From: Onchocerca volvulus | Lineage: Eukaryota > Nematoda > Chromadorea > Rhabditida > Onchocercidae | Assembly: GCA_000499405.2 (NCBI GenBank) | Contig: HG738137.1 | Span: 868,001 to 932,000, forward strand | DNA length: 64,000 nt | Reading direction: 5' to 3' | Shown here: piece by piece, positions 54,201-56,823 of the stretch | Numbering within the stretch: position 1 is the stretch's first letter | How the letters are laid out: each line of letters starts with the position of its first letter | Notes under the pieces: generated by a model | What the model was told of the DNA's origin: nothing | Database searches by the model: none | The model's input: the letters and a program-made list of their open reading frames with translations, nothing else | Made by a program: the position numbers and the translations under genes

Positions 54201-56823
54201 ATCATAAGACGTTATTTTATGATGTTGAACCATTTCTTTTTTATGTTTTAACTATATGGAATTCAACCGGCTGCCATCTGGCAGGTTATTTCAGTAAGGT
54301 TAGGAGATACTAATTTCATGATAAAAAAAAAGTGATTTTTTGGATTTATGGGTTAAGTGGGTTTTTTATAGTATTTCACAAGTTAATGAACTGCAAGCTA
54401 AATCTGGACCAAACAAAATATTTTTAGACAACTTAGATATTTCGAAAGTAAGAATTTTTTTTCAGCAAAAGTGTAGTGTGGAGAATAATCTTTCTTGCAT
54501 ACTGACTCTACCTTCATATCAGAACAAAGGTTATGGGCGCTTTTTGATCGATTTCAGTAAGTTTCATCCTTTTTTAGTAAATTTTGGTTTCCAATTTTCA
54601 TATATCAATTTTTTTATATGTTTAGTATTTTTGGGACTCAGTTGATGTTGAAAGCTTTATATCGGATTATATTCTAATTTCAGGTTTTCTTTTGTCTCGA
54701 CGAGAAGGAACAACAGGAACACCAGAACGACCACTCTCTGATATGGGTAATTTGGCTTACAGAAGTTATTGGCGTAGTATTGTTCTTGAATATTTTAAAA
54801 GACCAAGCTCTGCTTCGGTTGCAGCTCTGACGCTTGAAGGTTAGTATTGTATAATTTTATTGGTCTTTAATCTTCATTTGTTTTTTAATTTCTGGCGAGA
54901 AAAAACCATCACTTCTGCTGTTTGCAGAGGAAAACTGGGAATTTTAGTAATTTTTAACTATCTACATAAAAATATTTTCGCAGATATTGCGAAAACCACT
55001 GGCGTTTCAGTAGAAGATATTATGCAGACGATGAAAGATTTAGAAATGCTTCATTTCGATCAGAATGGAGAAATGTATGTCATTCTTCTGAATTTTGATA
55101 GTAACTTTACTTCGAAATTTCTATTCATTTCGTGCTGTTGAAAAAATAGCCATGTGAATGTTGTTGAATTAATAGTTAATTGTATATAGTAAAACTAAAA
55201 CTATTTATTTGAAAAAATAGCCATGTGAATGTTGTTGAATTAATAGTTAATTGTATATAGTAAAACTAAAACTATTTATTTAGCATTTTTTTAATTGTCA
55301 TTTTTTAATTATTTTTTTAATTATCTTTTTTTTTCATCTTTAAAATATTATATATATTTCAAATAAATGTTCGAGAAAGAAATCTTCCGTATTTTTTTAA
55401 ATTTAATGGCTTTCGGGATTTCTGGAAAGTTATCTTTAAAAGATTTAAAATTAATTTGTATTTTGTATTAAAACGAAATAAGGGTAGAACAATTTCAGTG
55501 CGAGCTTATTTGTAATCCTTTAGATTTTGAGTAACCAGTCTTGAATAATAGAGTTCATTATTCTGCATATGCAGACAATAAACAATAAAAAGCCTCCATA
55601 AGAACACAGGCTAAAAGTGCAGGGGGATGTGGAGTTTAACAGTTCTTCAAAGCTTTCGTAGCATGGCGCAGATAGTTTAGATGTAGTTGAGATAATTATG
55701 GCAGCAGAAGAAGAGTTTGGAATAGAAATTTCCGATGAAGATGCACAAAATATGGAAACTATGGAACAAATTAGTTGACTATGTAGTAAAAAAAAACAAA
55801 TAATTAGTGGTAAATGAATAGAAGAGTAGTAGTTACTGCTGCTGACCTAATTACTTCATTGGAAACATTGTTAGAAATACTTGGCTTAAGTTAATAGATA
55901 GTAGGTCTGATGTAAAAGGAATCAGCAGGTTTGATGCTTCTGAACTTGTTTGCAAAGTTGCAGGGCAAGTCCCCCTACAACATGATAACATTGAGCACTG
56001 TTTTACTTATTTTGCACATCACCTTATCGTGTGTTATTTTATTCAGTGCTCTGTACTCTTCAAATACATCTAGTTGTGGGAAGTACAAAACTTCATAGAC
56101 ATAAAAAGATAATATGTATTGCTAAATAAATCCAAAATATTGAACGATTTCACTGAATTTTGCATAGGTTTATCATATTCATTTATTGTTAAAGAGCGCA
56201 GCACTTTTTTTTTTTTTTTTTTCAGAAAATCTTTAATTATCAATAAGAATCTCGTGGAATCACATTGGGCAAAAGCGGGAAACGATACGAAACGTATTTG
56301 GATCGATGAAGATAATTTAAAAGTTAGTGCGTAGTTCCAGTTGAATGTTAATTGCTTCCCAAAAATCATTCTTTTGAACAATAGTGATAACAATTTCAAT
56401 ACTGAAATACGACTAGAAGTATATTTCAATCGTAAAGAAATATATTTTGAAAGCATCAGCAAGTCAATATTCTAGGTCAACTGAAATCAATAATGAGATT
56501 CACGATTCGCTGAGATTTAATCACTAAATTAAAAGATAGGCAGCTAACCATCTGTGCAATTAACTAAAAATACATTAACTTGATAAATTATTTATCGTAC
56601 TGTTTTTTACGATTTTATTTAAATTTGGTTTGGAATTTCTGGTGTGGATAGCGGATTTCCCAATTTTAACAATTCTGTGAAGCAGTATTAAATGGTGAAA
56701 GTACTTCATTGTTTAACTGTTTATACAATTTGTTTAATTATTAAATATGCAATTTTAATTTAGTGGGAGCCGAAGCAATTTCCTTTGGTTGAATACACCA
56801 GTGATGAAAGTAGCGAAACTTGA
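51249..56823 (+). CDS. MYST-family histone acetyltransferase
   Basis: Thirteen exons join in phase: 51249..51365, 52010..52152, 52446..52494, 52711..52881, 53058..53177, 53403..53582, 53801..53869, 54137..54298, 54466..54556, 54684..54839, 54984..55074, 56226..56322 and 56764..56823, giving 501 residues. The MYST domain occupies about residues 210-500: a C2HC finger (Cys243, Cys246, His259, Cys263), [36 protein letters not shown], Cys348 in LSCILTLP, the acetyl-CoA loop QNKGYG (356-361), Glu382 in [11 protein letters not shown] and YRSYWRSI. It acetylates histone lysines in nuclear complexes. No chromo barrel or PHD finger is seen; the first 200 residues are Ser/Lys-rich and disordered-looking. 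Residues 12-19 (QTTLDQFW) resemble a PCNA-binding box. The C terminus is [19 protein letters not shown]. The HBO1/KAT7 class fits best, though MOF- or Tip60-type divergence is possible. Confidence 0.92.
52239..52322. repeat. tandem duplication, 42-bp unit, two identical copies
   Basis: The unit beginning TTAGATTATGAGAGATTAG at 52239-52280 is repeated exactly at 52281-52322, within a MYST-gene intron. Confidence 0.9.
55140..55281. repeat. tandem duplication, 71-bp unit, two identical copies
   Basis: The unit beginning GAAAAAATAGCCATGTGAA is present at 55140-55210 and again at 55211-55281, in the large MYST-gene intron. The first copy starts just past an in-frame stop of the read-through frame. 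Confidence 0.9.
55610..56010 (+). pseudogene. acpP-fabF: decayed Wolbachia-like acpP-fabF fragment (nuclear insertion)
   Basis: In the last large MYST-gene intron, a bacterial acyl carrier protein reads [37 protein letters not shown] (55674-55778), including the DSL serine that takes the phosphopantetheine arm. A stop lies just before it (TCGTAGCATGGC) and a one-base insertion follows EQIS. Twenty-odd bases on, a second frame starts [15 protein letters not shown] (from 55820) and continues after a frameshift as [38 protein letters not shown]. This is the start of 3-oxoacyl-ACP synthase II (FabF). The order acpP-fabF is that of alphaproteobacteria, and the AT-rich wording suits Wolbachia. It has several stops and frameshifts, no mobile-element flanks, and sits inside an intron, so it is a dead transferred copy. 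Confidence 0.85.

Follow-up and report, generated by a model that had tools for sequence, protein, structure and literature searches.

How did two genes of bacterial fatty acid synthesis come to lie inside a eukaryotic intron, and in what form did they arrive? The question is raised by the window, a stretch of 64,000 nucleotides of Onchocerca volvulus (contig HG738137.1, positions 868,001 to 932,000), in which the initial annotation had noticed a decayed, Wolbachia-like acpP-fabF remnant within an intron of a MYST acetyltransferase gene. All positions below are those of the window, unless another genome or locus is named.

The Host Gene and Its Intron

The remnant had been placed between MYST exons and on the host gene's strand, and both Pfam and tblastn find such exons on its two sides:

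53403..55074, + strand: MYST exons 5' of the intron, with zf-MYST and MOZ_SAS domains (tblastn blocks; more exons lie upstream, from 51249)
55075..56225, + strand: MYST intron holding the Wolbachia DNA, GT...AG, 1,151 bp, with edges GAAAT/GTATGT (5') and TTTCAG/AAAATC (3')
56226..56820, + strand: last MYST exons 3' of the intron (56227-56322 and 56764-56820), from tblastn with filarial proteins

Among six MYST exon pieces, four match zf-MYST or MOZ_SAS and the two shortest match neither. Upstream of the intron, PF17772 (zf-MYST) is found at E 4.2e-15 and PF01853 (MOZ_SAS) in three exon pieces at E 1.4e-24, 4.4e-11, and 4.7e-12. The last exons align with proteins of D. immitis, Loa loa, Cercopithifilaria, and Brugia at 71-88% identity (tblastn); residues 451-482 of the D. 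immitis MYST protein P0122, for example, fall on 56227-56322 at 84%. A search with the protein joined from the exons returned relatives in O. ochengi (78% identity over 91%) and O. flexuosa (85% over 68%) and further ones in D. immitis (67%), Loa loa (64%), and Brugia (60%). When the O. ochengi protein is aligned to the window (tblastn), eight of the ten blocks show 94-100% identity, and the remaining two (79% and 60%) extend across intron sequence. By these protein matches, the host belongs to the O. ochengi / O. volvulus group of Onchocerca.

Structure and Decay of the acpP-fabF Remnant

The bacterial gene pair lies within this intron:

55625..56009, + strand: decayed Wolbachia gene pair, acpP from about codon 27 on and fabF up to about codon 66, from DNA alignments to wOo and wDi

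Against wOo, the remnant forms a single block of 377 columns (window 55633-56008, wOo 428803-429176) with 88.6% identity and E 3e-136. One contiguous match thus covers acpP and then fabF, in bacterial order and on the sense strand, as first described. Identity is 86.4% to wDi (window 55625-56009) and 85.6% to wDcau, and lower in the other rows. The remnant is truncated at both ends, starting inside acpP and stopping inside fabF; the span originally given to it, 55610..56010, located the gene pair properly and missed its exact limits, which are about 55625-56009. The two genes share four bases in wDi. Both peptides quoted in the initial annotation can be read in their frames, namely the ACP core (38 residues) at 55662-55778 and the FabF start (19 residues) within the open frame 55846-56073. 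Taken alone, the ACP stretch matches Pfam PF00550 (PP-binding) with 30.7 bits against a cut-off of 20.8 (E 3.8e-7), and the two FabF fragments match no Pfam family at E 1.

At least one stop and two frameshifts had been reported, and the alignments locate them: a TAG stop in the acpP frame at 55659-55661, a one-base insertion at about 55776 followed by extra bases in the next A run, and the loss of one base at about 55865. Three more bases are lost near the left end. With a stop and a frameshift in its frame, the window's acpP has no intact reading frame for a functional acyl carrier protein. The 20 remnant-specific changes fall on codon positions 1, 2, and 3 in numbers of 6, 10, and 4, whereas in the live wOo, wDi, and wDcau 41 of 69 changes are on position 3 (Fisher p 0.0023). 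The remnant decays like non-coding DNA, without coding constraint.

Wolbachia Origin

The best protein match of the read-through ACP is the ACP of the Dirofilaria immitis Wolbachia (88% identity, E 3.5e-21), which supports the proposed affinity. Among the best 120 of 917 protein matches, all rows named by organism are Wolbachia or labelled Rickettsiales, and no nematode or mitochondrial ACP is among these named rows. At the DNA level, all 14 loci recruited via the wDi ACP match the remnant; 12 of them are Wolbachia or labelled Rickettsiales, and the other two are other bacteria, matching over 56-79 bp only. A DNA tree of 13 rows, the phylogenetic check called for at the outset, groups the remnant with the filarial Wolbachia wOo, wDi, and wDcau (support 97/98). 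The tree gives no resolution to the order within this group or to supergroup C versus J, and under AU tests both remnant+wOo (p 0.421) and remnant+wOo+wDi (p 0.344) stay acceptable. A chance match is excluded because the reversed window has no match at E 1e-3 in 800 kb of wOo. A phage search over the ACP stretch gave partial matches only, to four records.

A eukaryotic or mitochondrial ACP is ruled out by these protein matches. The wider reading, in which the fragments would stem from mitochondrial or nuclear eukaryotic ACP/KAS genes, has a negligible probability in light of the same Wolbachia or Rickettsiales rows, and also because the acpP-fabF join and a pgpA-GNAT overlap next to it (see below) were matched as contiguous Wolbachia DNA. 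Most Onchocerca species carry live Wolbachia, and their being so common in these worms speaks for contamination by the live bacterium or a chimeric assembly. Against this, the best identity is 88.6%, with a stop and frameshifts, and the same remnant follows the same exon in the gene set of a separate species, O. flexuosa; we thus hold contamination to be extremely improbable. With Wolbachia matches in protein and DNA, the tree, and MYST exons on both sides, the suggested transfer from endosymbiont to nucleus is borne out: the 55625-56009 remnant is a nuclear Wolbachia transfer (nuwt).

A Composite Insertion

That the intron holds Wolbachia DNA was recognized correctly for the acpP-fabF part. 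Its extent was drawn too narrowly, since an adjoining piece and a probable third one lie to the left:

55158..55200, unstranded: probable 43-bp Wolbachia piece, copy 1, in the first copy of a 71-bp tandem duplication
55229..55271, unstranded: probable 43-bp Wolbachia piece, copy 2, in the second copy of the duplication
55513..55622, + strand: second Wolbachia piece, the end of pgpA and the start of an overlapping GNAT gene (source genes both on the - strand)
55623..55625, unstranded: junction of the two Wolbachia pieces, with at most 3 unassigned bases (GGG) when compared with the donor flanks

The pgpA-GNAT piece is 88.2% identical to wOo 478151-478260 and 86% to wDi 96853-96962, and it is matched in all five Wolbachia genomes searched with the whole intron. 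Its source ORFs were named by Pfam PF04608 (pgpA) and PF00583 (GNAT). They are found 49.0 kb from the acpP-fabF source in wOo, 46.8 kb in wDi, and about 107 kb in wDcau if that genome is circular; in the other two genomes the two sources are on separate contigs. The insertion in the MYST intron is a composite of separate Wolbachia genome places. It has several donor fragments in one insertion and is thus a complex insertion as defined in the available part of PMC6215612.

A single simple insertion altered by deletions only is ruled out here by the 47-49 kb between the sources of adjoining pieces (wOo, wDi). A donor Wolbachia with a rearranged genome is unlikely, as the breaks interrupt genes and all three complete genomes checked have the sources at separate places.

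The 43-bp stretch is 97.7% identical to wOo 365907-365948 and is present twice, as part of 71 bp that are perfectly duplicated in tandem (55138-55281). We grade it as probably Wolbachia-derived because no match was reported in wDi or wDcau. Its identity to wOo of about 98%, compared with 88% for its neighbours, hints at a second, younger event.

Age of the Insertion

In O. flexuosa, the MYST gene model P0126 reads ...HIDQNGE followed by 41 acpP-derived residues, and the change falls at the very exon boundary that opens the window's intron. By tblastn, residues 341-390 of P0126 fall on window 55614-55760, and its tail matches the wOo ACP at E 8e-20. Over residues 341-394, this public O. flexuosa protein ends in Wolbachia acpP plus a short tail. 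Looking for the same intron in related worms, as had been advised, finds the acpP remnant after the same MYST exon in this gene model. As it is implausible that one and the same gene piece was inserted twice independently into one intron, the acpP part appears to be older than the split of O. flexuosa and the host, the O. flexuosa evidence being a predicted protein rather than DNA. O. flexuosa is Wolbachia-free according to the accessible text of PMC2882956. The MYST-intron remnant is in that sense a locus-level fossil of symbiosis and a single-locus witness that O. flexuosa had an infected ancestor.

The acpP similarity of P0126 extends about two codons further left than that of the window (INK, where Wolbachia has ISK), and the window's junction is for this reason possibly not the original one: trimming at the pgpA/acpP junction could have followed the insertion, or else the two pieces could have come in separately.

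As P0126 ends in acpP-derived residues after a shared exon, the remnant could also be taken for an alternative last MYST exon, so that O. flexuosa or the present host would make a MYST-ACP fusion. We find this very improbable. The window keeps the ordinary last exons, which match four other filarial proteins, and its acpP frame is broken by a stop and frameshifts. P0126, in turn, is without the ordinary last exons, has no PP-binding match at E 0.001 (Pfam), and reads NGL in place of DSL, the acyl carrier motif with the phosphopantetheine serine. Since both the normal last exons and a PP-binding match are missing from it, its acpP "exon" is probably an artefact of gene prediction, in which a nuwt was mistaken for coding sequence.

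Composites Elsewhere in the Nuclear Genome

The window contains a second, independent composite:

3759..4164, unstranded: five abutting Wolbachia pieces from five distant wOo places

Its pieces (3759-3908, 3913-3987, 3990-4050, 4048-4082, and 4084-4164) measure 35 to 150 bp and are of mixed orientation. Single Wolbachia pieces occur at 14278-14415 and 17562-17707, with 80% and 84% identity to wOo.

For a wider view, three wOo stretches of 36.27 kb in all were searched against the nuclear genome (94.7 Mb). They gave at least 46, 38, and 40 matches, respectively (at least 124 together), which are dispersed. Among the matches listed, the median length is 132.5 bp and the longest 537 bp, and no contig-long match to the 36.27 kb is found. 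Extrapolation to the whole of wOo yields roughly 3,300 nuclear matches (about 3 per kb of wOo). This estimate is pushed up by one amplified stretch, which accounts for 15 of the 46 matches of the first wOo stretch, and pulled down by match counts that are lower bounds.

This amplified stretch, wOo ~430660-431500, which we take to encode an AEC-type transporter, lies within a nuclear repeat at L017 (C3:6010552), L019 (C3:5012761), and L033 (C4:444691). The similarity among the three loci spans about 0.9 to 1.6 kb, and L017 and L019 share an internal rearrangement, in which part of one Wolbachia stretch is locally inverted. The whole has the look of a nuwt that was copied within the host genome.

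From the matches of the first wOo stretch, 30 loci were cut out, and 26 distinct ones remained after four repeats of neighbours had been dropped. A locus was called composite if two of its pieces, with sources more than 2 kb apart, met at a junction of 30 bp or less. Seven of the 26 are composite (six of 25 without the MYST-intron locus) and 19 are not; as 800 of the 958 kb of wOo were compared, the true number of composites may be higher. Two further composites, L002 and window 3000-5000, were chosen otherwise and stand outside this count.

L002 shows seven Wolbachia pieces within about 600 bp (positions 1012-1607, C2:4727113-4727708), up to 98% identical to wOo, and L030 nine within about 1.5 kb. 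The pieces of both loci come mostly from far-apart wOo places and in both orientations; each locus also has two pieces whose sources lie within about 1 kb of each other, with their order kept. L002 holds a separate acpP piece, which looks younger than the acpP remnant in the MYST intron.

A letter-free clustering test, for which four distances were tried, compared match pairs from different wOo stretches with expectation. Within 1 kb, there are three pairs against 0.12 expected (Poisson p 2.8e-4); within 300 bp, one against 0.05 (p 0.045); within 2 kb, three against 0.23; and within 10 kb, five against 1.1. The pairs within 1 kb are 231-771 bp apart, and the test thus speaks for clustering, not abutment.

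Joining Mechanism and Alternative Explanations

Twenty junctions were measured, eight of them from L002 and window 3000-5000, which were picked because they are composite. Gaps range from -11 to 16 bp with a median of 0.5 bp. Overlaps of at least 3 bp occur in 4 of the 20 junctions versus 25% of 295 simulated blunt joins, so that microhomology is not in excess over the simulation. Compared with the simulated blunt joins, the observed gaps run slightly larger (Mann-Whitney p 0.026), and old junctions erode. The junctions fit blunt joins roughly and are compatible with end joining accompanied by small fillers or erosion.

We consider it highly probable that the MYST intron holds a complex-type nuwt, that is, joined Wolbachia fragments captured in a Wolbachia-carrying ancestor and decaying since. 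In such an ancestor of O. flexuosa and the present host, broken Wolbachia DNA would have been present in the germ line and would have been captured into the intron of the MYST gene, at least two short fragments with sources nearly 50 kb apart having been joined end to end. We infer a single event rather than several. The joining mechanism is most likely non-homologous end joining, by analogy: DNA injected into nematode germ cells (the C. elegans arrays) and plant organelle DNA are joined in this way, and plant organelle insertions of several fragments bear end-joining marks (PMC6215612, available part). Since its capture, the insertion would have been passive ballast, presumably transcribed as part of the MYST pre-mRNA and removed by splicing, while it decayed free of selection. 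One point against this explanation comes from B. malayi, whose introns contain fewer nuwt junctions than expected, as reported in the accessible part of PMC3849323.

Alternatively, the pieces arrived separately, or they are leftovers of a single large insertion that inversions and deletions have broken up, and the stitched look is deceptive. Several observations point that way: the acpP similarity in O. flexuosa reaches further left than the window's, piece identities to wOo differ (88% versus 98%), L017 and L019 have a local inversion in common, and the same-order pieces of L002 and L030 have sources within about 1 kb. On the other hand, L002 with seven pieces in some 600 bp and L030 with nine in some 1.5 kb need more steps under this alternative than under joining before insertion, and with some 3 matches for each kb of wOo scattered over 94.7 Mb, independent insertions at most 30 bp apart should be very rare. 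We regard separate arrival or leftovers as unlikely.

With confidence just short of even, we propose that at least one in four Wolbachia fossils of the host genome is a patchwork: fragments of tens to hundreds of bases, from all parts of the symbiont genome, which the worm germ line would have ligated from degraded symbiont DNA into small arrays, before integration or during it, in the way it treats injected DNA. If a patchwork build is general, symbiont DNA enters the nematode genome as short joined fragments and not as long intact stretches. If the ligation took place in the germ line, nuwts would record symbiont lysis, and each patchwork would sample one broken genome. The findings also suggest that high-threshold, gene-by-gene screens undercount nuwts and miss their structure.

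Other Features of the Window and Genome

A metazoan signal recognition particle (SRP) RNA gene lies at 41290-41589 (225.8 bits); the minus-strand open frame 41179-41607 overlaps it and is probably not a gene. Two tRNA genes, tRNA-Gln (CTG) at 38438-38509 and tRNA-Gly (GCC) at 59024-59094, are also present. Besides the mitochondrial contig C115, COX1-like fragments occur in nuclear contigs at C2:13793275-13793826, C2:21015440-21015907, and four weaker places. The first of these has five TGA codons and one TAA codon inside, which suggests a nuclear mitochondrial insertion.

Comparison with Known Systems

Nuwts are a known kind of sequence. For O. volvulus, 531 putative nuwts are given in the available text of PMC5310847, and the accessible part of PMC12693587 gives 818 matches in 653 regions for Onchocerca nuwts and 466 nuwts for O. 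flexuosa; according to the latter, C-type nuwts average 434 bp in Onchocerca and many are orthologous among Onchocerca species. The MYST-intron locus may already be among the published Onchocerca nuwts. It resembles them, as far as both sources are available, in being a short, decayed Wolbachia fragment in the nuclear genome, and differs from them in the build from non-adjacent pieces shown here. The density found here (at least 124 matches per 36.27 kb of wOo) is above the published one, with shorter and weaker matches being counted. The nuwts of Brugia are longer. The words intron, mosaic, and rearrange are absent from the main text of PMC12693587. In the openly available literature, including the accessible parts of PMC12693587, PMC3849323, PMC4046930, and PMC2882956, we found no description of composite nuwts, and the patchwork build of the MYST-intron remnant deserves a systematic look.

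The Wolbachia-like sequences of O. flexuosa and A. viteae, both Wolbachia-free (PMC2882956, available part), are, like this locus, nuclear fossils of a past infection. The main text of that source, as available, does not mention acyl carrier or fabF, and it considers retrotransposons and type IV secretion as transfer routes, whereas end joining is favoured here. Wolbachia blocks are drawn on four fragments in its Figure 2, inverted repeats on some of them, and multi-block structures may thus already be shown there.

Parallels are also found outside the nuwts. Complex numts and nupts (PMC6215612, in its accessible text) likewise combine several non-adjacent donor fragments per nuclear insertion, with end joining proposed there as well; the donor in our case is a bacterial symbiont and the host a nematode. 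In the extrachromosomal arrays of C. elegans (PMC9071541, available part), foreign pieces are joined in any orientation, and LIG-4 end joining is involved. Those arrays are megabase-sized, laboratory-made, and favour fragments above 1 kb, whereas the pieces described here measure about 30-540 bp and are chromosomal.
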